From Synechococcus sp. AG-683-C23 (lineage in GTDB: Bacteria; Cyanobacteriota; Cyanobacteriia; PCC-6307; Cyanobiaceae), in the NCBI GenBank assembly GCA_003208835.1, contig QCVD01000001.1, forward strand, positions 102,089 to 166,088: DNA of 64,000 bases, given 5' to 3'. How positions within the stretch are numbered: position 1 is the first letter of the stretch; the number at the start of each line of letters is the position of its first letter. Shown here piece by piece: positions 32,279 through 51,431 of the stretch. Position numbers and translations under genes: made by a program. The notes beneath the pieces are model-generated. The model ran no database searches, was not told where the DNA came from, and saw nothing but the letters and a program-made list of their open reading frames with translations.

Positions 32279-33574
32279 GTGATCGAGCGCTATACCCTCC
32301 CCGAGATGGGAGCCATCTGGAGTGAGCAAGCCAAATTTCAAAGTTGGCTCGACGTGGAAATTGCAGCCACCGAAGCCAACTGTCGCCTCGGCCGTGTGCC
32401 AGAAGAGGCCCTCAAAACGATTAAAAACAAAGCCTCCTTTTCCGTCGAGCGGATTTTAGAAATTGAGGCAGAGGTCCGTCATGACGTGATCGCCTTCCTC
32501 ACCAATGTGAATGAACATGTCGGAGATGCTGGCCGGCATATCCACGTCGGCATGACCAGTTCAGATGTTTTGGATACGGGCTTAGCCCTACAGATGAAAC
32601 GCTCGGTCGTGCTGCTGCGCGCGGAACTCGATGCCCTCGCCGATGCCCTCAGAACGTTGGCCCGTGCGCACAAAAACACGGAGATGATCGGACGCTCCCA
32701 CGCCATCCACGGCGAGCCGATCACCTTTGGGTTCAAAGTGGCCGGCTGGCTGGCCGAAACCGAACGAAACCGCAGCAGGCTCGAACGCTTGGAAGCCGAT
32801 GTGGCTGTTGGACAAATCAGTGGAGCAATGGGCACCTATGCCAATACCGATCCACAAGTGGAAAAGATCAGTTGCGACATCCTCGGGTTAACTCCAGACA
32901 CGGCAAGCACCCAGGTGATCTCCCGTGATCGCCATGCGGATTACGTGCAAACCCTGGCCCTGGTAGCAGCATCCCTCGAGAGGTTTTCCACGGAAATTCG
33001 CAACCTCCAACGCACCGATGTACTCGAAGTCGAGGAAAACTTCGCCAAGGGACAAAAGGGCAGTTCCGCGATGCCCCACAAACGCAATCCGATCCGTAGC
33101 GAACGGATCAGTGGACTCGCCAGGGTGATTCGCAGTTACACCATTGCAGCTCTTGAAAATGTCACCCTGTGGCATGAGCGCGACATCAGCCACAGCTCGA
33201 CAGAGCGGATGATGCTGCCGGACTGTTCTGTCACCCTGCACTTCATGTTGCGCGAGATGACGGCGGTCGTCCAAGGGTTAGGGGTTTATTCCGACAACAT
33301 GCGCCGCAACATGAATATTTATGGTGGGGTGGTCTTCAGTCAGCGCGTGCTTCTCGCCCTCGTCAGCACCGGAATGAGTCGGGAAGATGCTTATCGCATC
33401 GTCCAACGCAACGCCCACACGGCTTGGAATACGGAGGGAGGCAACTTCCGCGCCAACCTCGAACGCGATGCTGATGTAACAGCACATCTCTCCGGAGACC
33501 AATTAGCCACGTGCTTCAGCACCGACGTTCACCAGGACAACCTCAACGTGATATGGCAACGCCTGGGGATTTAA
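32279..33574 (+). CDS. purB: Adenylosuccinate lyase
   Basis: MIERYTLPEMGAIWSEQAKFQSWLDVEIAATEA...GMTSSDVLDTGLALQ...GSSAMPHKRNPIRSERISGLAR; GTG start. Confidence 0.97.
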   Translation: MIERYTLPEMGAIWSEQAKFQSWLDVEIAATEANCRLGRVPEEALKTIKNKASFSVERILEIEAEVRHDVIAFLTNVNEHVGDAGRHIHVGMTSSDVLDTGLALQMKRSVVLLRAELDALADALRTLARAHKNTEMIGRSHAIHGEPITFGFKVAGWLAETERNRSRLERLEADVAVGQISGAMGTYANTDPQVEKISCDILGLTPDTASTQVISRDRHADYVQTLALVAASLERFSTEIRNLQRTDVLEVEENFAKGQKGSSAMPHKRNPIRSERISGLARVIRSYTIAALENVTLWHERDISHSSTERMMLPDCSVTLHFMLREMTAVVQGLGVYSDNMRRNMNIYGGVVFSQRVLLALVSTGMSREDAYRIVQRNAHTAWNTEGGNFRANLERDADVTAHLSGDQLATCFSTDVHQDNLNVIWQRLGI

Positions 33575-34734
33575 TTTCCTGCTCCGGGGAGACCCAAAAT
33601 TCGCAATACGGATGCCGCGTCCACAATTGGGTCTAGGGGTTCCAGGGCGAGGTTCATACCATCTGTGAATTTGGCAAGAATATTTCGATCAACCACCACG
33701 ACATCACCACTCCGCAAGGGAGGGTTGTTGGCACTACTCATCTCCGAACCCGGACTAAACGACATTTGTTTAATCGTGGTGCGGCCCTCTCCATCCATCC
33801 GAATCAAATCAACCCGCGACACACTGGCCCGGGAGCTCAACCCGCCCGATGCAAGAATCGCCTGCGAAAGGGGAGCATTGGAGGGAATCTCCACTAACCC
33901 CGGTAAAGCCACCTCACCGACCACCTTCACAGCGATCGTTGAGGGGGCGAAATTCGACGACGCTGTTGTAATTAGATCGGCATTAATCGGAGCATTCGCC
34001 TTCAAAACCCGAATGCTGTCGCCGTCGTAAATCAATGGATTCGGGGCAAAGCCGCCCTGCTTCAAAACAGTGAGGTAGTCGAAGACATAACGCTTTGAGC
34101 TAGCTCCCCGTTGATGGGAGGGCCGAAGCAATTCCAACCGGGAAAGATCCCCCATTGCTGCAACCCCTCCAGCCCGCTGGATCACATCGACCATGGTGGG
34201 CCAACCACCGCCACTACCCAGCTCTTCATCGCTCGAGAATCTCCCTTGGCTATTCACGGGGAGTGTGAAGACTCCTGGGCGACCAACCTGACCTGTCACC
34301 GTGACGCGCACTGGCCGTTGCTCGACAAGATCTAGATAGACAATCGGTCGTCGAAGGATCTGGCTATAACCTTTAGTAATCCGTTGACGCGCCTCATCCA
34401 TCGTCAGGCCCCATACGTCCATTGTTCCCAAGCGGGGCAAATTGATCGTGCCGTCGCTGAGCACTTGCACAGAGGCCTCATAACCCGAAATCTTGAACAC
34501 CGACATCACCAACTTGTCGCCAGGGCCGAGCCGATACCGATAGGAGGCTTCAGGGAAAGGGCTGACGGAAACAGATATTGGTTTAGGAAATGCCGTCGGT
34601 GCTGGACGGGATGAAACCTTCAGCCAATTCCGCCTTTCCTCCGCCCGCACGCTCCCTCCCCAGATGAGCGACACGCTCAACATCCAAGCAGCGGCGATGC
34701 CTGCAAACAATCCGGAGCGAAGGATGAAAAACAT
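33571..34734 (-). CDS. Second polysaccharide export outer-membrane protein (Wza/KpsD-like)
   Basis: YRLGPGDKLVMSVFKISGYEASVQVLSDGTINLPRLGTMDVWGLTMDEARQRIT...VTVTGQVGRPGVFTL. Confidence 0.88.
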   Translation of the reverse strand: MFFILRSGLFAGIAAAWMLSVSLIWGGSVRAEERRNWLKVSSRPAPTAFPKPISVSVSPFPEASYRYRLGPGDKLVMSVFKISGYEASVQVLSDGTINLPRLGTMDVWGLTMDEARQRITKGYSQILRRPIVYLDLVEQRPVRVTVTGQVGRPGVFTLPVNSQGRFSSDEELGSGGGWPTMVDVIQRAGGVAAMGDLSRLELLRPSHQRGASSKRYVFDYLTVLKQGGFAPNPLIYDGDSIRVLKANAPINADLITTASSNFAPSTIAVKVVGEVALPGLVEIPSNAPLSQAILASGGLSSRASVSRVDLIRMDGEGRTTIKQMSFSPGSEMSSANNPPLRSGDVVVVDRNILAKFTDGMNLALEPLDPIVDAASVLRILGLPGAGN

Positions 34735-34809: not shown

Positions 34810-35751
34810 ATGGCACTGACAGGATCTGCCACCCCGGATGACGTTCTTCTCCCAAGGGGTTGGAACGGCTCCGAGCAAGACAGCAGTCGACTCTTCACAC
34901 TGGACGGGCTCGAGCTCCATCTCATCGCAGGGAGACAGTTTGGTCCAGTGGCCGAAGCCGTTGGGACGCTGCGAGAGTCCACCTATCGAGAGCAGCTGTC
35001 CGGTTCAGGCAACAGGCTTGATCTAGATGGACGCGACCCCTACTACGACCATCTCCTGCTCCTAGACGTAGAGAGTGGGGCTCTCGCAGGATCAGCGCGG
35101 TTGCAATTCATCCCCTTCGGCGCTCCGAGCTCTGATTTACCAAAAGCTAAAGCCTCCTATCTCGAGCACGTTTATCCGGGGATCAAAGCGCTGCTATCCC
35201 AGCGACAACATCACGTCGAGATTGGACGAGTCGCCCTCGCGCAACGGTTCCAACGCCAGCCCCATTCCTTGATGGCCCTATTCAGAGGAGGACTGCTTAT
35301 TTCCTCCCTGTCTGGGTACAGCACCCTGCATGGCCTGGTGTCTTACAACCATTTCGCGTTTTCCGACTCCGTCAATGCCACCTTTTTAAGCGCGCTGATG
35401 CGCCCTCCTTATCGCCGGACAAATCTTGCTCTGCCCGTGCCCCGTCACCCTGTTCCCTCGATCGAGAGCAGCGATAAGCCCTATCCGATCGACAACGTTC
35501 AAGCCTTGGAATTGGCGTTGCGCAACGACTACGACGAGGAATTCCGTCTGCCTGTTCTGTTACGGCAGTACTTCAATCTGATGGGAGCACAGGTATGCGA
35601 CCTTTCGCTGGCAAAAGATTTCAATCAAATCACTGAAATCCTCATGGCTGCAGAGCTCAACAATCTTCCAAAGGAACGTCTGAATTACTTTATTGATGTG
35701 CCGCATCAACCGATCTACCAGCGCTTCAGCTGGTACCGAGGACAAGACTGA
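34810..35751 (+). CDS. GNAT-type acyltransferase, OlsB-like (acyl-ACP-dependent N-acyltransferase family)
   Basis: VGTLRESTYREQL...LDLDGRDPYYDHLLLLDVESGALAGSARLQFIPF...HHVEIGRVALAQRFQRQPHSLMALFRGGLL: layout of OlsB/LuxI-like GNATs. Confidence 0.65.
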   Translation: MALTGSATPDDVLLPRGWNGSEQDSSRLFTLDGLELHLIAGRQFGPVAEAVGTLRESTYREQLSGSGNRLDLDGRDPYYDHLLLLDVESGALAGSARLQFIPFGAPSSDLPKAKASYLEHVYPGIKALLSQRQHHVEIGRVALAQRFQRQPHSLMALFRGGLLISSLSGYSTLHGLVSYNHFAFSDSVNATFLSALMRPPYRRTNLALPVPRHPVPSIESSDKPYPIDNVQALELALRNDYDEEFRLPVLLRQYFNLMGAQVCDLSLAKDFNQITEILMAAELNNLPKERLNYFIDVPHQPIYQRFSWYRGQD

Positions 35752-35789
35752 GCCTGCTCACGCTGGTAAGTTAGCAAAATCATGGTCTG

Positions 35790-36080
35790 GTGCTCGTATT
35801 GGCCGAGGTCCTCCCCGACAAGCACGCGCTAAAGGGACGCCTTGTGGAGATCCTTCATCGCATCTCAGGTGCTGACCCTGCCCTGATAACGGCAGAAGCC
35901 CGGCTAATGGAAGACATCGGTATCGACTCGCTGGGCTTTTACGAAATATTGATCGAAGCCGATACCTGTTTCGGGATTCGCATCCCAGAGGAAACCCTGC
36001 TGCAATTCCGCACTGTCGGTGATATTCAGACCCATCTGGAGTCGCTAGAGCTCACTCAAGTCAATGCCGAAAACACCTGA
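35790..36080 (+). CDS. Acyl carrier protein
   Basis: LMEDIGIDSLGFYEILIEADTCFGIRIPEETLLQFRTVGDIQTHLE; DSL phosphopantetheine site with Ser at about 35928. Confidence 0.88.
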   Translation: MLVLAEVLPDKHALKGRLVEILHRISGADPALITAEARLMEDIGIDSLGFYEILIEADTCFGIRIPEETLLQFRTVGDIQTHLESLELTQVNAENT

Positions 36081-37323
36081 ACGTTCGGCCATCGTTGGCT
36101 GGGGTTCAGTCACCCCCCTCGGGTCCAATCCGCAAACCACTTGGGAAGCAGCCCTTGGCGGTCGCTCTGGCATTCAAGCGTTGCATGACCTCTGGAGCAC
36201 CGACCTAGCAACTCGCATTGCCGGACGTGTAAAGGACTCGGCCTTTTCATCGCTAGAGCCCATTCTTCGCAGACGGGCCGATCGCTGCTCACAGCTTGCA
36301 TTATTGGCTGCACGACAAGCTTGGGGCATGGCCTTAGAGCGCGCACCTGGGCTTGATCCCGATCGTGTCGCCGTTGTGATCGGCACTGGGATTGGTGGAC
36401 TCTCCACCATGCATGAACAGCACATGCAACTCTCCGAAGGGGGGGCATCTCGGGTCAATCCGCTCACCGTACCGATGCTTATTCCAGATGCCCCTGCAGG
36501 CCAAGTCGCCATCGACTTAGGACTTCATGGCGGAGCCCATGCGCCCGTCTCGGCATGTGCATCCGGCGCTGAAGCCATGATGCTGGCCCAAATGTTGCTC
36601 AATGACGACCGTGCCGACTTGGTGCTCGCAGGGGGAACCGAAGCGCCGGTGAACAGGCTTGGACTTGTTGGGTTTTCCGCTATGCGCGCTCTGTCGTGCC
36701 GCAACGACGAGCCAGAGCAGGCCTCTCGCCCATACAGCCTCGACCGAGACGGCTTTGTGCTGTCGGAAGGCGCAGGGGTACTGGCGATGATGCGTGATCG
36801 AGATGCCCCTGCCGGTGCAGCCCTTGGCTGGCAACTCGCTAGTGGCAGCAGCAGCGATGGCCATCACATTGTGGCGCCAGAGCCGCAAGGGCTCCAGGCC
36901 AGTCGGGCGATTGACGATGCCCTACGGCGGGCTGACATCGATCCTGTAGATCTCTGCGCGGTTCAGGCCCATGCCACGGGCACCAGTCTCGGGGATCTTG
37001 CCGAAGCAAGAGCCTTGCGTCTCAGTTTTGGAACCGTTGGGGACTCCCTTCCGGTATATGCACCGAAGGGCCAGCTCGGTCACCTCTTAGGCGCCGCCGG
37101 ATCCGTCGAATCCATTTTAGGATTACAAGCCCTAAGAGAAGGCATTCTGCCTCAAAGCATCAACGCCGATCCTCTCGATCCAGGCGTAGATTTAGCAGTG
37201 ACAACTTCAGGAGCAGTGAAGCTTCCAGAACATCAATCAGAACGCTTCATGCTCAAAAATGCATTTGGCTTTGGCGGTCATAACATTAGCCTGGTTCTTG
37301 CTGCTGTAAGTAATAAAGCTTGA
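36064..37323 (+). CDS. Beta-ketoacyl-ACP synthase (FabF/KAS-II-like)
   Basis: Catalytic triad visible: VSACASGAEAM, AHATGTSLGD, GHLLGAAGSVES. Overlaps the ACP gene by 17 nt. Confidence 0.92.
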   Translation: MPKTPERSAIVGWGSVTPLGSNPQTTWEAALGGRSGIQALHDLWSTDLATRIAGRVKDSAFSSLEPILRRRADRCSQLALLAARQAWGMALERAPGLDPDRVAVVIGTGIGGLSTMHEQHMQLSEGGASRVNPLTVPMLIPDAPAGQVAIDLGLHGGAHAPVSACASGAEAMMLAQMLLNDDRADLVLAGGTEAPVNRLGLVGFSAMRALSCRNDEPEQASRPYSLDRDGFVLSEGAGVLAMMRDRDAPAGAALGWQLASGSSSDGHHIVAPEPQGLQASRAIDDALRRADIDPVDLCAVQAHATGTSLGDLAEARALRLSFGTVGDSLPVYAPKGQLGHLLGAAGSVESILGLQALREGILPQSINADPLDPGVDLAVTTSGAVKLPEHQSERFMLKNAFGFGGHNISLVLAAVSNKA

Positions 37324-38074
37324 CTGCTCGACTAAATCCTTCTCGATCGCGAGGGTCCGAAGGAAGATTGAGATCTGTTGATTTACCAAGATAACAATTA
37401 ATAGTGGAGGGCCTAGAAAAAATCCTCTTTAATAAAATTTTAAGCGGATTATACAAATCTTGTTCAGAAATTCTCAAGTTCTTGTAACCAAATGTCCAGG
37501 GTACGATGCGAGCGTTGTGCTTTCTAGCCAATACCCATGCACTAGCAGATACACGCTGAAGAATTGTTGTCTTAAGAGAGCCATTGGGTGCAATAATTAT
37601 GGCGCCATAGCGCCTCAATATCTCAGAAGATTTATACACAGCAGATCCCCGAGAGGACACATTTAAATGGTCCATTAATACATGCCCAGCATTCAAGGCA
37701 GACGACGAGAACCAAGGAAAAACTAGGCCCAAGTGAAGACCAGCTGTGGTAATACTGGGCACCCGCAAATACCCCTGCACCACAAAAACATCAAGAGGAT
37801 TTTGATGATTATACAAATAAATTATTGGCCGGGATTTACTCACTTCAAAAGACTGGTCCTGCACAGAAATAACAACCCGCACACCCATCGCACATAGAAC
37901 TAGCCTGGCAACAAGCGCCAAAAGATTTGAAGCCAATTTCTTTTGCCTCAACGCGAGCGCCCATAATTGAACTAAATAAACAACAAAAACAGATACAAGA
38001 GCAGATATACGCGCTACAGCACGAATCGGCACTAAAAGAATGTTTTTTAGATCATCAATCCTTAGTATCATCAA
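37286..38074 (-). CDS. PlsC-like acyltransferase, paralogous to the C-terminal domain of the adjacent KpsS fusion
   Basis: HX4D motif YNHQNPLDVFVVQ; IIIAPNGSLKTTILQRVSASAWVLARKHNARIVPW; C-terminus LPSDPRDREGFSRAVKLYYLQQ. Confidence 0.8.
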   Translation of the reverse strand: MMILRIDDLKNILLVPIRAVARISALVSVFVVYLVQLWALALRQKKLASNLLALVARLVLCAMGVRVVISVQDQSFEVSKSRPIIYLYNHQNPLDVFVVQGYLRVPSITTAGLHLGLVFPWFSSSALNAGHVLMDHLNVSSRGSAVYKSSEILRRYGAIIIAPNGSLKTTILQRVSASAWVLARKHNARIVPWTFGYKNLRISEQDLYNPLKILLKRIFSRPSTINCYLGKSTDLNLPSDPRDREGFSRAVKLYYLQQQEPG

Positions 38075-38110
38075 AATAAACGTATAACAGTCATATCATC
38101 CAAGATGTTC

Positions 38111-40243
38111 TTATTGCTCCCTGTAATACGCCTGAACCGAACGACTAAAGCCATCACGATCGCGGGGGTCTTGAGGGAGTTGAAGATCAGATGAGCGCCC
38201 GCGACGACAGTGGATCGTGCCCAGCGGTGCCGTTAACCGACGCAATAGCAAACGCAGCGGTTTGCAGTTGGCCCCAACAGCACCATCTATTCCCTCGTAG
38301 CAAAAAAGCCATGGAACGATGTTGGCCCCATAATGCCGGGCCAACATCCATGCGCTCGACGAGACCCGCTCCTCAATCGGTGTCAACAACGATCCGTTCA
38401 GGGCAATCATAATTTCACCGTGATCTCTCAACAACGTGGAGGCACTCATCAGGCCAGCAAGACGTGACTGGGGCTGTCGATGATCAAGGACCGCTGAACC
38501 GGCATTCCGCGCCGCAGCCGCATAACCAGGCAGCACCCACTTGAGATGCAACTGAGCCGTGGTGAAGCCAGGCAATTTGAGTATTGCCTGAATAACCAGG
38601 CAATCATACGGACTGCGGTGATTAAAAATGTGCACCAAGGGGGTACCAGGCTGTTCAGAGGGTTGGCTGTCGTCCACCACCACTTGCACCCCCAAGGCCC
38701 GCAGGGCTCCAGCAGACGCCAAGGTCATCAATTGGGCCGCCAAGTCCGGTCGACGGAGCAGTACCGCGGGAAGTCGCAGGCCGTACAGCACAAATCCAAG
38801 GCCAGCCCATGCCATACGGGAGGCCAACCGAGCAGTCAAGACCAACGAATTGCGAATCACAGGCGACTTCAACACCGGCAACGTGCGAGGAGACTCCAGC
38901 TGGCGGGCTTCCGGACCGATCGGAAAGGTGGTGCGGAATGGGAAGTCCCCATCGAAATTGCCATTCACCTGCGTGCTCATCACGAGATGGTTGTAAAAGC
39001 GATAAAAAAGCGGCCGATCACTAGGCTGAGGATCACGCCAGAAGTCGTCGAGGGGCTTCTGATCCGTAAGACCCTCCAAGTTGTAAAAGGTGTTGCCCAT
39101 CGTCTTGGTGGGTACCGCATGGAACAGTGATTGCAGGCCCACCGTGCTGTTCACCGTGATCACACCACGACACGTTCTTAGATACCGGCTTAAGGGGCCA
39201 TCGTGGAAATAGTGCACCCGGCCGACAACGCCATAACGTCGGGCTAACAGGACAATCAACAGGCCGTAATTGTTGTAGCCCCGATCGCGCGGATGATGTT
39301 TAAAGGCCAGTTGATCCGAAGCATGGGCATGTTCGGAGAAAGACCGGATTACATCTTCAATGAAATCGTGCATGCCCCGGTAGGGGGATCCCATTTGAAT
39401 TTGAGAATCGCTAGAAACCTGCAGAACAGAGAGAAAAAATGACTCATGCTCCAGTAGCCGCCGCTTCACATCTCTCTCGGTCCAGCGGTACAGCCAATAG
39501 CGCCAGCTACCGCGCACCTGGCACCACAAAAAACGTGGAGAAGGCTGCAGTTTGTGCTCCCCTTCGATGATGGGGTAATCGGTGAAAGCATGCTGAATAA
39601 ACGTGGGCGCTTTCCAGGCCTTGCGCCATCGCGATCCCGGATCAAGAACGATGTCTTGGGGCAGTTGATCCACAGGAGCGAGGTTCTGATAAAACTCGAC
39701 TGGCTTGTTGAGATTGGAGCGAGCATTCACCCGATCACGCTCCAACGTGATGTAGTTCGGGCGTAGATAGCCAAGTTCAAACACCCACGCTTCGATATCT
39801 AGCGACTGAGCTTCTTCAATCGCGATCCGGTGGGGAATGATGAAATCGCCATACATAAAGATGTGGCGAATGCCGCGCTCCTGGAGCAGACGTCGTACAA
39901 ACGGACGCCATGCCTCCATATCACCGCTGAACGGCACGGTCACCTCAGACGAGAACCCAAATTCCCGCAACGGGAACACCACTTTGGTTACAGGAATGCC
40001 GCAGCCCCTGAGGTAATTGCAATACCGAGCAAAAAACAGACCAATCGGACCCATCAAGAGGAGGACAGGACCATCAATGCGCACTTGTACCAGTGCCGGC
40101 GCCCGTCCCCTACCCAAATCGCTCACCATCGGGTGTATCAGTATGAAATCCTGGCATGCCCTAACGACGGCGCAATCGACCCCAGTGGCGAAATAAGGCC
40201 TGCACCAGCGTGCGGCGTGGGGGAGGGGCTTCTTTCCAAGCAA
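38111..40243 (-). CDS. KpsS-like capsule transferase fused to a C-terminal PlsC-like acyltransferase domain (probable start near 40129)
   Basis: N-terminus PVLLLMGPIGLFFARYCNYLRGCGIPVTKV...GVITVNSTVGLQSLFHAVPTKTMGNTFYN (KpsS-type); C-terminus FNHRSPYDCLVIQ (HX4D), IALNGSLLTPIEERVSSSAWMLARHYGANIVPW, LPQDPRDRDGFSRSVQAYYREQ. Confidence 0.8.
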   Translation of the reverse strand: MLGKKPLPHAARWCRPYFATGVDCAVVRACQDFILIHPMVSDLGRGRAPALVQVRIDGPVLLLMGPIGLFFARYCNYLRGCGIPVTKVVFPLREFGFSSEVTVPFSGDMEAWRPFVRRLLQERGIRHIFMYGDFIIPHRIAIEEAQSLDIEAWVFELGYLRPNYITLERDRVNARSNLNKPVEFYQNLAPVDQLPQDIVLDPGSRWRKAWKAPTFIQHAFTDYPIIEGEHKLQPSPRFLWCQVRGSWRYWLYRWTERDVKRRLLEHESFFLSVLQVSSDSQIQMGSPYRGMHDFIEDVIRSFSEHAHASDQLAFKHHPRDRGYNNYGLLIVLLARRYGVVGRVHYFHDGPLSRYLRTCRGVITVNSTVGLQSLFHAVPTKTMGNTFYNLEGLTDQKPLDDFWRDPQPSDRPLFYRFYNHLVMSTQVNGNFDGDFPFRTTFPIGPEARQLESPRTLPVLKSPVIRNSLVLTARLASRMAWAGLGFVLYGLRLPAVLLRRPDLAAQLMTLASAGALRALGVQVVVDDSQPSEQPGTPLVHIFNHRSPYDCLVIQAILKLPGFTTAQLHLKWVLPGYAAAARNAGSAVLDHRQPQSRLAGLMSASTLLRDHGEIMIALNGSLLTPIEERVSSSAWMLARHYGANIVPWLFCYEGIDGAVGANCKPLRLLLRRLTAPLGTIHCRRGRSSDLQLPQDPRDRDGFSRSVQAYYREQ

Positions 40244-40514
40244 TCAATTCATCAATAGCCTGCTCAGGAGTGATGAACCATCCACTGCCACGACTGACGT
40301 AGCGGGGGTACTCGATCAAGGCGGCATGCACGAGCGCATCAAGCGAGAGGGAACGGCCTCGCCTCGAACAGGTTTCACGATCACTGGTCAACCCCCAGCC
40401 CGCATAAAAAGGCAAACCCCAGCAATGCACCTCCACGCCACGCAGAAGGCCCTCAAATCCAGCCAGGGATGTGAGCACATGCAATGCGTCGACCTGGGTA
40501 AAAAAGCTGATCAA
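40161..40514 (-). CDS. kpsC: C-terminal segment of KpsC in a shifted frame
   Basis: [69 protein letters not shown], matching the equivalent segment of the first KpsC repeat ([32 protein letters not shown]). Confidence 0.85.
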   Translation of the reverse strand: [117 protein letters not shown]

Positions 40515-42159
40515 TCGACCCCGAGGTCAGTACTTCATCGCAACAGCGCTGGGCGATCTCCTCCCCCATACCGGCACGACAGAGGCCTGCAGTGACATCA
40601 GGGTGAGGCTTATAGACGAGATAAGCGTTAGGTTCAGCTACCCGCACTGCCTGCAGCAAACCAAGGTTAGTGCACAGGCCAGGGGCACCAAACCGAATGG
40701 AGGCATCACTCTCGACTTGACCCACCACCAAAACCACGCGTTGAATCCCATGGGGGCGCTGCCAGGAGTCCGCTTGCAGGTTGTATTTGGTGATCGCCGC
40801 ACCCACCAACCGCTGCCGCAATTGTGCTGCTCGCTCAAGCTGGAGCACTGTCCACTGGCGATCAAACAACAATAGTTCTAAATCGCTGGGCGCGGTGGCG
40901 TCGTAGTACATGCCGCGGGCATCCACCACCCAAGAGATCGGATCAATGAGATCCGCCCCCAAGCCCACCGATCGAAGGAAACCATCTTCCACGTGCAAGG
41001 TCGGTAACTGGCGACGATCCGCAGCGCGCAGCACCCGTGGTTTACCCCGACGGCCCCACACCGCCACTGCATTCATGCCACTGCCTGGAACCATCCATGG
41101 CATTGGGAACCTCACATCGCTCCCTGCTAAGAAACGGCGCAGGTTGCGTTGTTTCCAAGGCGTAAACCCAAAGGCCTGCACTCGTCTGGGGGCCAACGCG
41201 CTCATCCGACGCTGCAAGCCAATGGTCCTCATCAGAGTTTCAATCGAGCAGGGTTCATGCTGATGAGGATCAATGCAACAGGGATATGCAATGAGTGCTC
41301 CATGCACTAAAGCCATTAACGACACACCTCGCTGACGGCGGTCCGGCGCAGCTAAGCGGTCGTGGGTGAGCCCCCAACCGGCATAAAACGGCATCCCAAA
41401 ACAATGCACAGGTCTCCCCCAGAGCAGCGCCTCAAATCCCATCTGAGAGGTGACGACATAGACCGCCTCAGCACGTTGCAGCAGTCCAGCCGGATGCAAG
41501 CCATCGGCACTCAAACGAATGCGGGGATGAACCAGATCCTTTGCACTGAAATGCCCACGCGCCCGACCATGAATGACGTCGGGATGCACTTTCACGACAA
41601 CCGTGCAGGACGGATGATCCGCTAGTGCCTCGCGCAGCATCTGAAGGAAATGCTCTGGGCTGGCCCAACCGAGGGGGATCGAGCAATCTCCGGCCGATTG
41701 ATCCACCACCAGCACAAAGCGCTCCTCAGGAACGGGAGAGTCCTGAACAGGATTGACTTTGCTGAGCCGCTGCTCACACCACAGCGCCTGGACCTGCTGC
41801 GCCCGGACGCGCTGATCGAGAGACAGCGGCAGCGTGATCAAGTGCTCGAGCCGACTGGGAGCCGTTGCATCAAAATGAACCCCCAGATCATCAATGAGAA
41901 GCGCAAGCGGCGGATCGCGTCTTCCCTTGCCGAGGGAGCGCAGGAATCCATCCTCGATGTGCCAAACCGGAAGCCCCCAGTGCTGACCGAGCCGTTCCAC
42001 CCGCCGCGCACTCGGACGGCGACCCCAAGCCAGCAACGCATCGACATCACGGCGACGACCTGGCACCAACTGAGCCGGCGCCAACAACCTCGGCAGGGTT
42101 TGATGCACAAGCATGCCCCGGGACGGCACACCGAGTCGCGCAGCAGAGAGCCTGGTCAT
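40453..42159 (-). CDS. kpsC: KpsC-like capsule polysaccharide transferase, frameshifted near its end
   Basis: [32 protein letters not shown]...[29 protein letters not shown]...; two-repeat architecture; ends prematurely as [21 protein letters not shown]. Confidence 0.87.
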   Translation of the reverse strand: [568 protein letters not shown]

Positions 42160-42191
42160 CGGGTAAGACAGGGCATACCGAATCCTCTCCG

Positions 42192-42884
42192 ATGGCGGCC
42201 AATGCTGCAGCGCTGGCCTTGATCCCCGCCCGCGGAGGATCCAAGGCAATCCCAGGGAAAAACCTTCAAGAGGTCGGAGGCCATCCCCTTGTGGTGCGCT
42301 GTATTCAGGCGGCGCAGGCAAGTCATCGCGTCACCCGTGTAGTGGTCAGCACTGATGACGATGCCATCGCAAACATGTCACGGGACGCTGGGGCTGACGT
42401 CATAAAACGCCCTAAGACCATTGCAGGGGACAACGCCAGTTCTGAATCGGCTCTGCTGCATGCCCTCGATGAACTGGCGATTCCAGATCAATCCCCAAAT
42501 GGACTCGAAGCCAATCTGGTGTTTCTGCAGTGCACATCACCGTTCACCACTGGCGCAGAGATCGACAAGGTTCTCGCAGCCCTCGACCAACCCGAGATTA
42601 ATAGCAGCTTTGCTGTTGCTCCTTGGCATGGCTTCCTTTGGAGGGCGGATGGAGACGGCATTAACCATGACCCAAATTCACCGCGCCAACGCCGCCAAGA
42701 CCTCGAGCCCAGTTACTTAGAAACGGGGGCGATCTATGCGATGCGCACTGCCCACTTCCGCGCGGTTGGGCAACGGTTCTGCCCCCCATGGCAACCCGTC
42801 GTGCTTGCAAATGCCGGTCCCGAAATCGACACCCCCCAAGATCTTGCTCTTTGTCGAGGGCTTTCCGTTGTTTTATCCAGCTAA
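42192..42884 (+). CDS. neuA: CMP-nonulosonate (acylneuraminate) cytidylyltransferase
   Basis: ALIPARGGSKAIPGKNLQEVGGHPLVVRCIQAA...VVVSTDDDAIANMSRDAGADVIKRPKTIAGDNASSESAL...LQCTSPFTTG. Confidence 0.9.
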   Translation: MAANAAALALIPARGGSKAIPGKNLQEVGGHPLVVRCIQAAQASHRVTRVVVSTDDDAIANMSRDAGADVIKRPKTIAGDNASSESALLHALDELAIPDQSPNGLEANLVFLQCTSPFTTGAEIDKVLAALDQPEINSSFAVAPWHGFLWRADGDGINHDPNSPRQRRQDLEPSYLETGAIYAMRTAHFRAVGQRFCPPWQPVVLANAGPEIDTPQDLALCRGLSVVLSS

Positions 42885-42904
42885 TTTCAGGGGATTCGTA
42901 CTCC

Positions 42905-44215
42905 ATGTCGATGGCGCCTAACGCTCCCAAGCGCCTCGAAGGTCGCAAAGTCGCGGCGGTGGCCTGTTTCGACTCATTCGGGAAGTTGGCGATGACGCTC
43001 CTGGCGGCCTGCCGCAGGGAAGGAGCCGAAACCACGCTTTATCTGCTCGAGCTCAACAATCGGGCACTGTCGCGACGACAACGGTTGGAAATCCGTCGGA
43101 TCGACCCGCGGACACCCATCGAAAAACATCTCTGGGGTGATCTGCGTGACCTCTGCAGCCCAATGGCTGGCGACGTCGATGCCCTCATCCTTGGCCTCGA
43201 CGGTAAGCGCAGTCGCGATGCTCTGCTGCAACTCCAAGGTGCCTGGGGCCGTGGTCAAACCAGGCCACGCCTGATTAGTGCCTATCCCGGCATTCTCTTT
43301 CGCTTCGCCCTGGAAGGAATGCTCGATCGCTCCGGTGCTGATCTGTTGTGCCTCAATAGCCAGCAGGACCTCTCGACTTACCAAAAAGGCTGTGCCGCAT
43401 TGGGGCTCGATAGCCGCAACGCCGTCGTCACCGGCCTGCCGATCCTCTGGCGAACCCATCCCCGAACGGACTTACCTGAGCATCCGTCGATCGTTTTCTT
43501 TGAACAGCCCTCGATTCCTGTTCATCCCCTCCAGCGCCGGTTTGTCTGTGAACAACTACGGGATTTATCGGCAGCCTGGCCCAACCATTCGGTGATCTTC
43601 AAACCGCGCACCTCCAGCATCGAGACCACCCTGCACCGTCGCCATGGGGAGATGGCCAGCGTGATCGACACCATGTCGCGTCAACAGAGCAACCTGAAGC
43701 TGAGCTTCAAGCCGGCTACTCAATTATTGCGCAAGTGCGGCTGCGCCATCACGGTGTCGTCGACGGCTGCGCTGGAGTCCATGGCCATGGGCATCAGCAC
43801 GCGCATCGTGGGCGATCTGGGAGTGACCGAAACCTTGGGGAACCATTTCTTTGCCGATTCTGGTGCGATCGCCAACTTTGAATCCATTCGCGACAACCCC
43901 TTTGAGGTGCTGCATGACAACACCTGGCTGCAGACCCAAGGCTGGAATCCAGATGGAGATGACCGCTTTATTGAAGCCTTAGTCAGCCGTCTCCAAACCG
44001 AGCCGCCTCCGCTGTCGGCGAACGATTTAGGCCCGATCAGCTGGGGAAGTGAGGCTTGGCAACGCACTGCTTTAGGCAATGGTGGCCGCAAGATGTTGAG
44101 CAGTGGGGGAGCTCGTTCCAGTCAACGAAAACGCCATCACACCCGTCGAATGATTCGAACGGTTCGAGACAGTGTTGTGGGTTTTGGTTGGTTATCGAAA
44201 CTTCTGCGTAAGTAA
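42905..44215 (+). CDS. Putative glycosyltransferase, first of three tandem related proteins (DUF6716-like)
   Basis: KVAAVACFDSFGKLAMTLLAACRREGAETTLYLLE...VIFKPRTSSIETTLHRRH...LRKCGCAITVSSTAALESMAMGISTRIVGDLGVTETLGNHFFADSGAI. Confidence 0.7.
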   Translation: MSMAPNAPKRLEGRKVAAVACFDSFGKLAMTLLAACRREGAETTLYLLELNNRALSRRQRLEIRRIDPRTPIEKHLWGDLRDLCSPMAGDVDALILGLDGKRSRDALLQLQGAWGRGQTRPRLISAYPGILFRFALEGMLDRSGADLLCLNSQQDLSTYQKGCAALGLDSRNAVVTGLPILWRTHPRTDLPEHPSIVFFEQPSIPVHPLQRRFVCEQLRDLSAAWPNHSVIFKPRTSSIETTLHRRHGEMASVIDTMSRQQSNLKLSFKPATQLLRKCGCAITVSSTAALESMAMGISTRIVGDLGVTETLGNHFFADSGAIANFESIRDNPFEVLHDNTWLQTQGWNPDGDDRFIEALVSRLQTEPPPLSANDLGPISWGSEAWQRTALGNGGRKMLSSGGARSSQRKRHHTRRMIRTVRDSVVGFGWLSKLLRK

Positions 44216-45247
44216 GTGAGCATCGTTCTGGTTTGCGATGGTGCACTGGAGCAGTACAGCTGCCATCGCTTCGCGGACGCCTGGCGCCAGACGGGTCGAC
44301 GTTGCCTCGTGGTGGGGGCCCCAATAGCAGGAGAACTGCCCTTGCCCAATCGCCCTTGTGACCTAACACTTCATCCGAAGGAACTCCTTGGCAGCACGGT
44401 GTTTGATCACGCCAATGCCATTGGTTTATTTCTACGCAATCCCGCTGACATCGAAACGATCACGACGGGTTACAGAGCCCTTCGCCAAAGCCGTGGCCTC
44501 TTGGCTGCCCCAATTTTCAGCGGACCTCTGATCCCTCTCGCTGGAGATGACCTAATCGATGCTTTTTTGCGGCGCCTCAGTTGTGACCTGATGATTGTCA
44601 GCGGCGACGATCAGTTGAAGCAACTGAAGGCCATGACAAGCTTCTGGCCCGCTGAGCTGAGCAAGCCCCAAATCTTGGCGACGGGCTTCTGGTTTCCGAC
44701 GCCCCCCCCGACACCGCCCAGCCCCAAACCATTGCTTGTAGCGCTGTTACAACGCGAGATCCCAACGCGCATTGGAGATAAGGAGCAATTGATTCGGCTT
44801 ATAAAACGCTGGGCTCGCGGACAATCCGAATGGACCGTCGTTCTGCAACCGGATCACCCTTGGAAGTTGACGCCAACCGTGCCGACTGACAACACCAGTC
44901 AACAAACAAATGTGGTGGAGGCGGCACCGGAACAAATGCTTGGACTTCTTCGTCAGTGCACGGCATGCCTGACGGTGAGTTCCCCCTGGAGCCTGGTGGC
45001 GATGATGGGTGGAAGAATCCCTGTAGTTGTAGGGGACTACGGCATTCAATCCGAGCAACACACCACCACCTTTTTCGGCTGTGGAGCCATGCATCGTCTC
45101 CGCGACCTAGGGGGACTGCACAAATTGCAGAAGCTTCCCTTGGTCAACCAAGGTTGGCTTGAGGCCATAGGGGGGAGCATCAAAGACGGTCCGGCCCGCG
45201 TACTTGTAGCTCTAGATACCTTGCGTCCCGCGACGACTGCTCCATGA
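44216..45247 (+). CDS. Putative glycosyltransferase, second tandem copy (divergent)
   Basis: VVLQPDHPWK...MLGLLRQCTACLTVSSPWSLVAMMGGRIPVVVGDYGIQSEQHTTTFFGCGAMHRL, parallel to the flanking copies. Confidence 0.6.
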   Translation: MSIVLVCDGALEQYSCHRFADAWRQTGRRCLVVGAPIAGELPLPNRPCDLTLHPKELLGSTVFDHANAIGLFLRNPADIETITTGYRALRQSRGLLAAPIFSGPLIPLAGDDLIDAFLRRLSCDLMIVSGDDQLKQLKAMTSFWPAELSKPQILATGFWFPTPPPTPPSPKPLLVALLQREIPTRIGDKEQLIRLIKRWARGQSEWTVVLQPDHPWKLTPTVPTDNTSQQTNVVEAAPEQMLGLLRQCTACLTVSSPWSLVAMMGGRIPVVVGDYGIQSEQHTTTFFGCGAMHRLRDLGGLHKLQKLPLVNQGWLEAIGGSIKDGPARVLVALDTLRPATTAP

Positions 45248-46545
45248 CGCGTCCGCTGAAACTCCTGCTCATCGCCGATAGCGACAGTCAACTTTTGGCC
45301 TGTGAAGCACTTTGTCGATGCCAAACCGCATGGTCCGTGGAGTTCACCATCAATGTCATTCCCAGGGAGGGAACGCCCCAACAAATCCTTCAACGCATTG
45401 CCAACCTAGGCACGCTCTGGCGTCAGAATCTGAGACGACTACTTAATAATCCGAAGCTTCTGCGGTTCGACGCTGTTGGTGTGTTCCTCACAGGGAGCAA
45501 GCTGAACGACATCCGAATCGCCCTCGAACGGCGCCAGCAACGACCCAAGCTGTTTTGTGGATTTAATGGCGTCGTGCTGGAGCACTTCATTGAAGGCATC
45601 AGCTGGCGCTTGGGCTACGACCTGATCTGCCTCAGTGGCCCACGCGACCGTGATGCTCTGAACCAGCTAGTGGCCAATACCCCCTTCGCTAGCCAGCAAA
45701 CGGTGCTGACCGGGCTGCAGCGCAATGGAACAATTGAGACGCTCATCCCCCCTGCCCAACGGCCGAAACGGCTGGTCTTTGCGGAGCAAGTCGTGATGCC
45801 CTGCTCCGCCAGAGATCGGGCAGAAATGGTGCAGATTTTGGCGGGGTTGGCGACCCGTTCACCCAACTGGGAGGTGCTGATCAAGCCCCGGATCGCCCCT
45901 GGTGACGCGACATTTCACGACGTGGAAACCCACATCAGCTCGACCCTGCTCCAAACCCTGGGAGTCCCGCCAGCCAACTTGAAACTCGACTACCGCCCCT
46001 TAACGGACTTACTGCGTAAAGCGCCTCTGATGGCAACGATTTCATCGACGGCATTTTTTGATGCCCTGGACTTTGGATGTCGTCCCGTCGCCATGAACGA
46101 TCTCGGACTCCACGCCAGCCACGGCAGCCATGTGTTTGCGGGTAGCGGTGTCTGGCGTTCCCTCCGCGATGTGCATGATCTTGATGCGCTTGAACAAGAG
46201 CTCCAAGAACCAAATCCTCAATGGCTGGACTGGATGGGATACCACAAGCGCTATTGCGCTGACGATTTATTCGACGCTCTGGAGAACATCGAGCCGCCAG
46301 TAGCAACGGGCATCACGCATTGTGGATATCCAACCAATACCCAATCCAGTTTCAATCAACTCAGAGTCAGCGCAGAGGCGGCCATTTGCACAGCAGATTG
46401 GCGCGGAGCCGCTGACTTGCTCTCTCAAGCCGCACAAATGCGCCCACAGCACCGAGGGGTGGCCCGTCGCCACGCGGCCGCATCCTGCCGAAACCCATTC
46501 CTGCGAAGCGTTGGGCTCATCCTTTCGTATCGAGATCTGGGGTAA
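45244..46545 (+). CDS. Putative glycosyltransferase, third tandem copy (DUF6716-like)
   Basis: LKLLLIADSDSQLLACEALCRCQ...VLIKPRIAPGDATFHDVE...LLRKAPLMATISSTAFFDALDFGCRPVAMNDLGLHASHGSHVFAGSGVWRSL. Confidence 0.7.
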   Translation: MTRPLKLLLIADSDSQLLACEALCRCQTAWSVEFTINVIPREGTPQQILQRIANLGTLWRQNLRRLLNNPKLLRFDAVGVFLTGSKLNDIRIALERRQQRPKLFCGFNGVVLEHFIEGISWRLGYDLICLSGPRDRDALNQLVANTPFASQQTVLTGLQRNGTIETLIPPAQRPKRLVFAEQVVMPCSARDRAEMVQILAGLATRSPNWEVLIKPRIAPGDATFHDVETHISSTLLQTLGVPPANLKLDYRPLTDLLRKAPLMATISSTAFFDALDFGCRPVAMNDLGLHASHGSHVFAGSGVWRSLRDVHDLDALEQELQEPNPQWLDWMGYHKRYCADDLFDALENIEPPVATGITHCGYPTNTQSSFNQLRVSAEAAICTADWRGAADLLSQAAQMRPQHRGVARRHAAASCRNPFLRSVGLILSYRDLG

Positions 46546-46586: not shown

Positions 46587-48896
46587 GTGAAAGGCATCCT
46601 GATTGAACGCAATTTCACCCAGTTCGTTGTCTTTGCAGAAGACAGCATTCTGTCGGCACTTAGCAAGATCACGGCCAACCAATCAAGGCTGATCTTCGTC
46701 GTTTCCGAGAGCGGCATCCTCCAGGGTGTACTCACCGACGGTGACTTTCGACGCTGGATTGCAACATGCGGTGAGATCGACCTCAACAGGCCAGTCACAG
46801 CGGCAATGAATCCTGAATGCCGCAGTGCTCCAGAAAAAACACCAATCTCCGAGCTTGGTGAAGCAGTTAACAACTGGAGAGCATCGCGACCAGGGGGAGG
46901 CAAGATTCAGGCGCTGCCATTACTCGACAGCCACGGACGGATCGTGGCTGTGGCACGGCTTGGAACGGGCACGTTACAGCTTGGACAACACCCGATTGGT
47001 GATGAACATCCATGCTTTGTGATTGCAGAAATTGGAAACAATCACAACGGCGATATCAACATCGCACTGCAACTCATTGATGCAGCCCATGCGGCTGGAG
47101 CGGATTGCGCGAAATTCCAGATGCGTGACATGGGGCGTCTGTATAGCAATTCAGGGAAGAGCAGTGATATGGCGTCCGATCTCGGAACGCAATACACCCT
47201 CGATCTTCTCGAGCGCTTCCAACTCAGCGATGACGAGTTGTTCCGTTGTTTCGATTACTCAGCCAGCAAAGGGCTAGTACCCCTGTGCACCCCATGGGAT
47301 GAAACAAGCCTGCAAAAACTCAATAAGTGGGGAATGGAAGGGTTCAAAGTTGCCTCTGCTGATTTCACAAATCATGCCTTGTTGACACAACTTGCGGCAA
47401 CTGGAAAGCCACTAATCTGCTCTACCGGAATGGCGTCAGAGCTGGAAATTCGTTCTGGCATTCGCCACCTTCAAAAAGAAGGAGCCAATTATGTTTTACT
47501 GCACTGCAACTCCACATACCCAACCCCTTTTAAGGACGTTAATCTCCGTTACTTGGAACGACTTCGTGAATTAGCAGATGCGCCCGTGGGATATTCAGGC
47601 CATGAACGAGGGATCGAAATCCCCATTGCAGCAACCGCACTAGGAGCCGTGGTGATTGAAAAGCACATCACTCTGAATCGAGGGATGGAAGGCAACGATC
47701 ACAAGGTGAGCCTCTTACCGGATGAATTCAACCAAATGCTTCTTGGCATCCGTCGGGTTGAAGAATCGATGGGGCAAGGAGGCGAGCGGAGTATCAGTCA
47801 GGGCGAAATGATGAATCGCGAGGTGCTTGCCAAGAGCCTTGTGGCGTCGTGCGACATCGATGCTGGAACGACAGTCACAGAAGCCATGGTGAAAATTCAA
47901 AGCCCAGGACAAGGACTACAACCCAATCGACTTCACGACTTAGTTGGCATAAAGCTTCCAATCAACAAAAAAAAGGGGGATATTTTCTTCCCCTCAGACC
48001 TTAAAATGCAATCAGCTAAACCACGACCATTCAGATTTACACAACCCTTTGGACTACCAGTTCGTTATCACGACATCAGTATATTTTCGAAAGCAAGCAA
48101 CCTTGATCTTGTTGAAATTCATCTGAGCTATAAAGACCTCGAGATTGATCTCGATGTCGTCATTCCAGAGAAACTACCCTTAGGGCTTGTGATTCATGCT
48201 CCTGAGCTCTTTGCTGGCGACCATACACTTGACCTGTCGACTGCTGACGACAAATATCGGGAGCATTCCATCAAAGAGCTACAAAGAGTTGTTGACATTT
48301 CAAAAAATCTTCGCAAACGCTTTAAGTGCAAGGAGCCAGTACTTCTAGTCACTAATGTTGGTGGTTTTTCTGAACACCATCATCTCGACCCCAAAGAAAA
48401 AAAGCCTTTATATGATCGACTCATTCAAAGCCTTCAAAACATATCAACCGATAATGAAGTAGAAATTATTCCCCAAACAATGCCACCATTTCCGTGGCAT
48501 TTTGGAGGCCAGAGATATCACAATCTTTTTGTCGACGCCAACTTCATTCAATCCTTCCATAAAGAAACAGGAATGCGGGTTTGCCTTGACGTATCCCACT
48601 CGAAATTAGCCTGCACTCACTTGGATGCCTCGTTTAGCGAGTTCCTGAAGAAAATTCTACCCTTCACTGCACATTTGCATTTGGCAGATGCCCAGGGAGT
48701 TGATGGGGAGGGGCTTCAAATTAAAGAGGGAGAAATTGATTGGACAGAGCTTTTTAATTTAATCAACACTTACTGTCCAAACGCATCATTTATTCCTGAG
48801 ATCTGGCAAGGACACAAGAACCGCGGAGAAGGTGCTTGGATCGCTTTAGAACTCCTAGAGAATTACTCTTTGGCAACAAGAACGGACCTAAAGTAG
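46587..48896 (+). CDS. CBS-pair / NeuB nonulosonate synthase (with SAF-like domain) / xylose-isomerase-like TIM-barrel fusion
   Basis: CBS: DSILSALSKITANQSRLIFVVSESGILQGVLTDGDFRRW. NeuB: PCFVIAEIGNNHNGDINIALQLIDAAHAAGADCAKFQMRD...KVASADFTNHALL...GYSGHERGIEIPIAATALGAVVIEKHITL. C-terminus: LRVCLDVSHSKLACTHL-like stretch, HLHLADAQGVDGEGLQIKEGEIDW. GTG start. Confidence 0.9.
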   Translation: MKGILIERNFTQFVVFAEDSILSALSKITANQSRLIFVVSESGILQGVLTDGDFRRWIATCGEIDLNRPVTAAMNPECRSAPEKTPISELGEAVNNWRASRPGGGKIQALPLLDSHGRIVAVARLGTGTLQLGQHPIGDEHPCFVIAEIGNNHNGDINIALQLIDAAHAAGADCAKFQMRDMGRLYSNSGKSSDMASDLGTQYTLDLLERFQLSDDELFRCFDYSASKGLVPLCTPWDETSLQKLNKWGMEGFKVASADFTNHALLTQLAATGKPLICSTGMASELEIRSGIRHLQKEGANYVLLHCNSTYPTPFKDVNLRYLERLRELADAPVGYSGHERGIEIPIAATALGAVVIEKHITLNRGMEGNDHKVSLLPDEFNQMLLGIRRVEESMGQGGERSISQGEMMNREVLAKSLVASCDIDAGTTVTEAMVKIQSPGQGLQPNRLHDLVGIKLPINKKKGDIFFPSDLKMQSAKPRPFRFTQPFGLPVRYHDISIFSKASNLDLVEIHLSYKDLEIDLDVVIPEKLPLGLVIHAPELFAGDHTLDLSTADDKYREHSIKELQRVVDISKNLRKRFKCKEPVLLVTNVGGFSEHHHLDPKEKKPLYDRLIQSLQNISTDNEVEIIPQTMPPFPWHFGGQRYHNLFVDANFIQSFHKETGMRVCLDVSHSKLACTHLDASFSEFLKKILPFTAHLHLADAQGVDGEGLQIKEGEIDWTELFNLINTYCPNASFIPEIWQGHKNRGEGAWIALELLENYSLATRTDLK

Positions 48897-49815: not shown

Positions 49816-50592
49816 ATGGCCCAACCTCAACACTTCATTCGAGTCAAGCAGTGCAAGCTGCTCTATGGACGCGTACCAAAAGCGGCAAACTCATCAATCA
49901 AGGCGGCTCTTTGTCGACTCTTAAGCGAACGACCACCCAAAGGAACGAAAACAACTTCCGATAAGTTCTGGCAAAATGAAACAAACAACGAAACTGAATT
50001 AATTACACTTCGCAAGGCACGAAGATATAGACACAGCCACTCCAGCTTCAGCTTTGTACGCAACCCTTTTGATCGCCTGATTGCTGCTTACAACAACAAA
50101 GTCATCGAAATAGATGAACCGCCACTACCCATGAAACACATGGGAGTTCATCACGATATGTCATTTGAATCATTTCTCGACGTCTTGATTGACACGTCTA
50201 TCCATCGCTACGACGTACACGTTTTACCCCAAAGTCATTTGCTGTGCCTAGGACGACAGGTAATTCCAAAATTCGTCGGAAGAGTCGAGCAAATCGATGA
50301 ACATTGGGGCATTCTGCGGGGGATCCTGCAACGGCAAGGGATTGAAGTCATGCAATCATTACCACAAAAGAATGTACGCCGAATCAAGAAAAATAGCCTA
50401 CAAAAATATTTTTACAATGACGTATTGATTGATAAAGCGCTTCAAATTTATGGCGATGATGTCAGTTTATTTTATAACGACACAAGCATTGATAGCTTAA
50501 TCGCCAATGCACCACTTCCACAAGTGATACCACTTCAATCTCGCTCCATTAAACTATCAAGCTGGCTTTGGAACCATGTCTTCAAGCGCTGA
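49816..50592 (+). CDS. Sulfotransferase family 2 (HNK-1-like)
   Basis: LYGRVPKAANSSIKAALCRLL and HSSFSFVRNPFDRLIAAYNNKVIE. Confidence 0.8.
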   Translation: MAQPQHFIRVKQCKLLYGRVPKAANSSIKAALCRLLSERPPKGTKTTSDKFWQNETNNETELITLRKARRYRHSHSSFSFVRNPFDRLIAAYNNKVIEIDEPPLPMKHMGVHHDMSFESFLDVLIDTSIHRYDVHVLPQSHLLCLGRQVIPKFVGRVEQIDEHWGILRGILQRQGIEVMQSLPQKNVRRIKKNSLQKYFYNDVLIDKALQIYGDDVSLFYNDTSIDSLIANAPLPQVIPLQSRSIKLSSWLWNHVFKR

Positions 50593-50671
50593 GCAGCACA
50601 ACTAGCCAAGCAAATAATGTTGTTATCGAGCCATTAAAAATAGCCTTGCTGGTCAACATGACTACATCGCC

Positions 50672-51431
50672 ATGGCTTATCAACAACAATGGCCTAACTT
50701 GATTATTATTGGATCTAAAAAATCTGCAACTACCACGGTTAGCAACGATACTTGACCGACACCCGGAGATCCAAATCAGAAGATCGATGGAACCAAAATT
50801 TTTTGGCCGCAATTACAGGCGTGGCTGTGAACGGGACGGGCAACAATTCTCCGGCGAAAAAACGCTACGGCCTGCGTGGGGAAGCAAGCACGATGTACAC
50901 CTCCTCTTACCGCTCCTATCAACACACACACCACAACTCATCCGCCATTATCTCGGCAACATTCCACTGATCTATCTTGTCCGTCATCCCTTACGGCGCA
51001 TTGAATCCCATTGGAGACATTGGCGAGGCAGGGTTAATGATTGCCCTCCCTTTCACCAACTCCTGGAGTCAAAAGCTCTCAAGCAGCGCGTTATAGAAGC
51101 ATCTCTATACCACCAACAACTCATGCGGTATCGCCGATGGTTTCCTGCAGAGTCAATCCACTGCCTAACCACAGAAGAACTAAACGCAAACCCTGTCGAG
51201 AGCCTGAATATCATTTTAAAATTTCTTGGTCAACCACCATACGCCTCTAAGCTACTTCCCACAGAGCAACTGCCTGTTGCAAATTCGGCAGGATCAAAAG
51301 GACGACGCGAGGTCGCACAACCGCGATGGACAAAGGTACTCAAGAAGCAGACCATTGAAATCATTCAACCCGAGAGTGAGCAGTTTTTAGAAACGCTTCA
51401 ATGGCCAAAGAATACTTGGGCACTGGAATAA
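50672..51431 (+). pseudogene. Frameshifted sulfotransferase
   Basis: 50672..50755 encodes MAYQQQWPNLIIIGSKKSATTTVSNDT* (P-loop). The shifted frame continues LATILDRHPEIQIRRSMEPKFFGRN...IPLIYLVRHPLRRIESHWRHW (ORF 50709..51431). Confidence 0.7.

Follow-up and report, generated by a model that had tools for sequence, protein, structure and literature searches.

A candidate acyl module for the capsule lipid terminus in the kps locus of Synechococcus and related Cyanobiaceae

Kps-type capsules are taken to share a conserved foot of phosphatidylglycerol and a few residues of 3-deoxy-D-manno-octulosonic acid (Kdo), with the Vi capsule as the only exception described in the literature that we searched. 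In the Vi locus of Salmonella Typhi, the lipid foot is built by VexE, an LPLAT enzyme that depends on acyl chains bound to acyl carrier protein (ACP), acylates UDP-N-acetylglucosamine, and is the sole acyltransferase of the locus (PMC9597891); Vi loci lack KpsS and KpsC (PMC12220298). Earlier work noted a kps-like locus in marine Synechococcus as gene clusters associated with the nutrient regime (PMC10119275, PMC7522525). Here, we analyzed such a locus in a stretch of 64,000 nucleotides, hereafter the window, from Synechococcus sp. AG-683-C23 (GenBank assembly GCA_003208835.1, contig QCVD01000001.1, positions 102,089 to 166,088 of the forward strand). A first-pass annotation of positions 34810 to 40243 had proposed that the genes there make a dedicated acyl chain and transfer it to the capsule lipid terminus or to a glycan. 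We found that these acyl genes always lie inside a group 2-type capsule cluster and that one acyltransferase is fused to KpsS, which suggests that marine Synechococcus and freshwater relatives anchor their capsule on a custom-made, previously undescribed lipid.

Comparison with described capsule and acyl-transfer systems

In rhizobial Nod factor synthesis, a dedicated ACP (NodF) and beta-ketoacyl-ACP synthase (KAS; NodE) feed the N-acyltransferase NodA; NodA, however, belongs to another family and acts on chitooligosaccharide, and the Nod system has neither KpsS nor PlsC. The genes that concern us here lie between purB and a nonulosonate/glycosyltransferase cluster; the plus-strand genes are divergent from the gene for an outer-membrane polysaccharide export (OPX) protein.

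34810-35751, plus strand: candidate GNAT-fold N-acyltransferase, OlsB/OlsF-C type (PF13444, 3e-11; OlsF C-terminal half, 5e-15)
35790-36080, plus strand: dedicated ACP with a GIDSLG phosphopantetheine site (PF00550, 8e-10)
36064-37323, plus strand: dedicated FabF-like KAS with an intact C/H/H triad (TIGR03150, FabF family, 3e-115)
37286-38074, minus strand: stand-alone PlsC-like (LPLAT) acyltransferase with HX4D and APNGS motifs (PF01553, 2e-8), present in a subset of relatives only
38111-38887, minus strand: C-terminal PlsC-like acyltransferase domain of the KpsS fusion (PF01553, 4e-7)
38888-40129, minus strand: beta-Kdo transferase (KpsS) part of the fusion (NF050054 KpsS, 4e-83)
40161-42321, minus strand: dual beta-Kdo transferase KpsC (PF05159, 2e-58 and 3e-14, in two frames)

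The profile matches agree with the gene calls of the first-pass annotation from the GNAT to the KpsS-PlsC fusion, and alignments confirmed that the phosphopantetheine site of the ACP and the catalytic triad of the KAS are intact. The mechanical open reading frame (ORF) of the fusion spans 38111-40243; its true start is probably near 40129, where conservation among relatives sets in.

The system shares with the group 2/3 capsule system of E. coli a KpsS and a KpsC that bear QXXXD motifs, a complete pathway to Kdo, homologues of KpsM and KpsE, an OPX protein and nonulosonate genes. It differs in that KpsS has a C-terminal PlsC domain and is accompanied by a dedicated GNAT, ACP and KAS, that the genes are spread over three loci, that the KpsT homologue lacks Walker A, and that the host is a cyanobacterium. 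Like the Vi locus, the locus encodes an LPLAT acyltransferase of its own, but KpsS and KpsC are also present, which sets it apart from the Vi type. VexE is the best functional precedent for a capsule locus that encodes its own lipid-foot acyltransferase.

PF13444 and PF01553 proteins also form an enzyme pair of aminolipid synthesis (PMC11631085). As in OlsB/OlsA and OlsF, an N-acyltransferase of the first family and an O-acyltransferase of the second share one locus here, and the GNAT is approximately 25% identical to the C-terminal half of OlsF over most of its length. Unlike in those systems, the O-acyltransferase is fused to KpsS and has an altered motif III, a dedicated ACP and KAS are present, and the context is a capsule locus. 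FeeM/FeeL and the exosortase-linked N-acyl amino acid synthases share with this block the GNAT fold, a dedicated ACP and nearby polysaccharide genes, but in those systems the GNAT is shorter and is not associated with KAS, PlsC or kps genes.

Conservation of the block and of the unlinked Kdo and export genes

By its nearest named relatives, the window comes from the family of picocyanobacteria to which Synechococcus and Cyanobium belong. Our close set was the window's own genome plus 35 relatives drawn from its genus or family. The GNAT occurred in 24 of these genomes, and orthologues of the ACP and KAS accompanied it there, barring genes cut by contig ends. All 20 loci that were fetched have the order purB-OPX-GNAT-ACP-KAS-(PlsC)-KpsS/PlsC-KpsC-CMP transferase-DUF6716; named loci of marine Synechococcus, freshwater Cyanobium and Vulcanococcus follow it as far as their contigs reach, with GNATs that are 56-71% identical. 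The same 7 of 294 sampled cyanobacterial genomes have both the GNAT and KpsS-PlsC, and in three genomes with KpsS and no GNAT the loci end at contig breaks. The first-pass annotation had called for such a neighborhood search, and had held that acyl-gene homologs found routinely away from capsule genes would speak against its proposal. In cyanobacteria, the arrangement was kept wherever the contig permits, and in none of the genomes searched did the GNAT, ACP, KAS or KpsS-PlsC occur away from kps genes. We therefore rejected chance clustering of the block, on the grounds of synteny and co-occurrence. Plasmid records, our only survey outside cyanobacteria, yielded OlsF-like GNATs, as well as KpsS that showed no match to PlsC.

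Four near-complete genus members (G001, G020, G031 and G033) have purB without the block beside it, and the four genes were not found elsewhere in these genomes. All four retain the housekeeping FabF/ACP pair. The housekeeping ACP and FabF lie outside the block and are 29% and 38% identical to the block ACP and KAS, respectively. Given this pair, and a GNAT that never occurs without kps genes, we also rejected the reading of GNAT, ACP and KAS as general lipid genes. The GNAT is the only PF13444 protein in seven block-bearing genomes tested, and a profile search found no PF13444 protein in the four block-less ones. The GIDSLG site of the ACP is invariant across 21 aligned orthologues, and the C/H/H residues of the KAS align with solved KAS enzymes, its catalytic residues being kept in comparison with KasA. 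All block genes are under purifying selection, the ratio of nonsynonymous to synonymous substitutions (dN/dS) of GNAT, ACP and KAS being 0.05-0.21.

The Kdo pathway follows the block although it is not linked to it. KdsA passed its cut-off in every one of the 15 near-complete genus members that bear the block, in the window's genome (G000) and in the more distant G288, and a profile search did not detect it in the four block-less near-complete genomes. With 20 such genomes (G288 and 19 genus members), four of them block-less, the probability of this split would be 1 in 4845 under independence of the genomes, an assumption that does not hold. In the genomes tested, KdsB has the same distribution as KdsA, with one weak sub-threshold match in G033. 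Contig 14 of the window's genome carries KdsA, KdsB, KdsC and a KpsF-family isomerase in one cluster (L099 6128-13305), so that the CMP-Kdo pathway expected of an E. coli group 2/3-type capsule is present.

The window by itself suggested that KpsM, KpsE and KpsT were absent; this was rejected, as they are found at another locus. A divergent KpsM (NCBIfam KpsM, 5e-18) and KpsE (9e-44) adjoin fumC on contig 15 of the window's genome and occur together in the five relatives inspected, and a KpsM-type gene was found in 14 of the 15 near-complete block-bearing genus members at the threshold used. Upstream of KpsM is a KpsT homologue (L076:7561-8370, G000:C15; orthologues in L077-L081; match to PDB 8TSH, E 1.7e-15). 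Both Walker motifs, A and B, have degenerated in each of the six aligned genomes, and ATP hydrolysis by this protein is therefore doubtful. Since the unlinked Kdo pathway and KpsM/KpsE share the presence pattern of the block, the genes point to a real Kdo-type, ATP-binding cassette (ABC)-type capsule system with an added acyl module.

The QXXXD motif, which marks beta-Kdo transferases (PMC10148158), occurs as QVSSD in KpsS and as QSAGD and QVESD in the two modules of KpsC, and the KpsS part is 37% identical to a plasmid-borne E. coli KpsS over the full catalytic part. In the window, kpsC changes frame inside a TTTTTT run (40500-40505); 20 of 20 relatives have the gene in one uninterrupted frame, which makes the change either a sequencing error or a lesion of recent origin. 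In one relative (G016, L031:6724-10884), KpsC, KpsS and PlsC are joined in one ORF of about 1388 residues.

Proposed product of the acyl module and competing explanations

The PlsC units are coupled to the capsule genes in a manner that bears on their role. The stand-alone PlsC-like protein is 41% identical to the fused domain; both units carry HX4D and are predicted to adopt the LPLAT fold, and the model of the fused domain (pLDDT 85) has PlsC (5KYM) as its best fold in the PDB. In aligned relatives without the stand-alone protein, the fused domain is intact. Six genomes have the stand-alone protein. In three of these that were aligned (G029, G003 and G022), HX4D and NGS are gone from the fused domain, whereas the stand-alone protein keeps both motifs; in a fourth, G026, the fused domain could be aligned only partly. 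The decayed fused domain has a dN/dS of 0.32 versus 0.07-0.14 for intact ones. Both copies are intact in the window, where the fused one has drifted (NHRSPYD, ALNGS). Because decay of the fused domain coincides with an intact stand-alone copy, PlsC activity appears to be required by the capsule system. The capsule PlsC units read APNGS at motif III, versus FLDGTR in a housekeeping PlsC of the same genomes, and thus lack the acidic-G-T-R form expected for a phosphate-bearing acceptor. Without this acid and arginine, glycerophosphate is a less likely acceptor.

Sequence searches of the GNAT and KpsS-PlsC against solved structures gave nothing both significant and plausible, and for this reason structure comparison was used for the two. 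The GNAT scores 55 bits against the curated OlsF family, below the cut-off of 620, and lacks the other half of OlsF; it is approximately 25% identical, over 82-88% of its length, to OlsF-like proteins on marine bacterial plasmids. The closest PDB folds to its model (pLDDT 85) are CurA GNATL, FeeM and acyl-homoserine lactone (AHL) synthases, and the similarity to FeeM is at the level of the fold, not of sequence. We noted that the best sequence match of the KAS among solved structures is mycobacterial KasA, slightly above a cyanobacterial FabF, and that the best NCBIfam match of the ACP is AcpM; this resemblance may hint at long-chain elongation.

Collectively, we consider it probable that the block serves as a dedicated acyl module, making or completing the lipid terminus of a Kdo-linked, ABC-type capsule in part of the Cyanobiaceae. 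The initial proposal is partly supported: co-occurrence, synteny, the fusion and the Kdo and export genes place the acyl genes in the capsule system, while the anchor chemistry is inferred. An N-acyl, O-acyl lipid is the leading candidate for the product of the GNAT and PlsC, because of the OlsF-like GNAT, its fold like that of FeeM and the AHL synthases, the PF13444 and PF01553 pair, and the PlsC motif III. From the fusion and the gene order, we infer that this lipid would be the acceptor of KpsS. A more specific version, roughly half as likely as the general claim and hence tentative, is that an OlsB/OlsA-like pair, served by its own ACP and KAS, makes an acyloxyacyl aminolipid dedicated to anchoring the capsule, and that KpsS, joined to the second of these acyltransferases, adds Kdo to this aminolipid rather than to phosphatidylglycerol, which would be a new class of anchor.

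In the sequence of steps that we propose from gene content, the dedicated KAS would extend an acyl chain on the dedicated ACP, and housekeeping FabG and related enzymes would give a 3-hydroxyacyl or finished chain. The GNAT would then move this chain onto an amine, as OlsB does, and the PlsC-like domain, fused or stand-alone, would, like OlsA, attach a second acyl group to the hydroxyl of the product. KpsS and KpsC would place beta-Kdo residues on the resulting lipid, the nonulosonate-containing polymer would grow on the Kdo-bearing lipid, and KpsM, the KpsT-like protein, KpsE and the OPX protein would export it. The order of these steps, the acceptors and the identification of the product with the capsule lipid terminus are all conjectural.

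Several points weigh against a custom lipid anchor. The four block-less genomes may reflect a single loss, and the co-inheritance figures take genomes as independent, uncorrected for phylogeny. GNAT folds are promiscuous, the structural TM-scores are moderate (0.5-0.67), the top structural match, CurA GNATL, is not an N-acyltransferase, and the GNAT family has further members that use amino acids and play no part in capsules. KpsS and KpsC, moreover, look ordinary and could still use phosphatidylglycerol.

This last point leads to the strongest competing explanation, in which KpsS and KpsC use (lyso)phosphatidylglycerol as in E. coli, PlsC re-acylates the lyso-lipid after Kdo transfer, and the GNAT, ACP and KAS N-acylate an amino sugar in either the polymer or the linker, on the pattern of NodF/NodE/NodA. 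The likeness of KpsS to its E. coli counterpart, with QXXXD kept, agrees with it, as do the NodFE/NodA layout of the acyl genes and the neighboring nonulosonic acid genes, which supply amine-bearing sugars. The motif III of PlsC, by contrast, lacks the acid and arginine of glycerophosphate acyltransferases, and the nearest named families of the GNAT act on amino acids rather than sugars; we regard this explanation as unlikely. Less probable still is that GNAT, ACP, KAS and PlsC make an ornithine-lipid-like membrane lipid and are merely co-located with capsule genes in a genomic island. OlsF is indeed the best named match of the GNAT, and the GNAT and a PF01553 protein are the two enzymes of aminolipid synthesis (PMC11631085), but a free aminolipid would not require PlsC to be physically fused to KpsS, nor would it predict perfect co-occurrence with KpsS across Cyanobiaceae, a GNAT never seen without kps genes, and co-loss with unlinked Kdo genes. 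We give very little weight to a secreted N-acyl amino acid or signal made by the GNAT and its ACP, of the FeeM/FeeL kind linked to PEP-CTERM, beside polysaccharide export genes. The fold matches to FeeM and AHL synthases fit such a product, and a GNAT and ACP beside exopolysaccharide genes have a precedent in exosortase loci, according to the account of Craig 2011 given in PMC11631085; in sequence and length, however, the GNAT is nearer to OlsF/OlsB than to FeeM, no exosortase gene is among the annotated neighbors of the block, and the fusion of PlsC to KpsS would be left unexplained.

If a custom capsule lipid is indeed made, the KpsS-acyltransferase fusion and the constant company of GNAT, ACP and KAS would show that the capsule foot itself is open to re-engineering. 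Kdo synthesis in cyanobacteria would then also have an explanation, despite lipopolysaccharide reported to lack Kdo (PMC4390846) and exopolysaccharide proposed to lack a poly-Kdo linker (PMC4594306); the co-presence of Kdo genes with the capsule block points to a likely use for Kdo in these bacteria. Block-bearing bacteria are abundant in the ocean, and reports describe variation of the kps locus with the nutrient regime. The claim of the first-pass annotation that such an anchor is not described for cyanobacterial capsules fits the literature searched: it gives no interpretation of the acyl module, and the term "acyl carrier" is absent from the main texts of PMC10119275 and PMC7522525, but the kps locus itself had been reported in both.

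Neighboring genes of the block

The following genes flank the block.

33571-34734, minus strand: OPX protein, Wza/KpsD type (Poly_export, 4e-18; SLBB, 1e-17), syntenic in 20 of 20 relatives
42192-42884, plus strand: CMP-sugar synthetase of PseF/NeuA type, not KdsB (PseF, 8e-35, below cut-off; KdsB, 2e-12)
42788-44215, 44216-45247 and 45244-46545, plus strand: three putative glycosyltransferases of DUF6716 (PF20471 matches)
46587-48896, plus strand: CBS-NeuB-SAF-TIM-barrel protein of nonulosonic acid synthase type (PF03102, 1e-77; NeuB, 7e-91)

The cytidylyltransferase beside KpsC was considered as KpsU/KdsB and rejected, being PseF/NeuA-like, with the true KdsB elsewhere in the genome. The middle one of the three consecutive DUF6716 genes (42788-46545) is fast-evolving among relatives. 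The NeuB-type synthase (46587-48896) combines N-terminal CBS, SAF and C-terminal TIM-barrel parts in one protein. Downstream of it are two sulfotransferase-family genes (49816-51431), by which the capsule is possibly sulfated.

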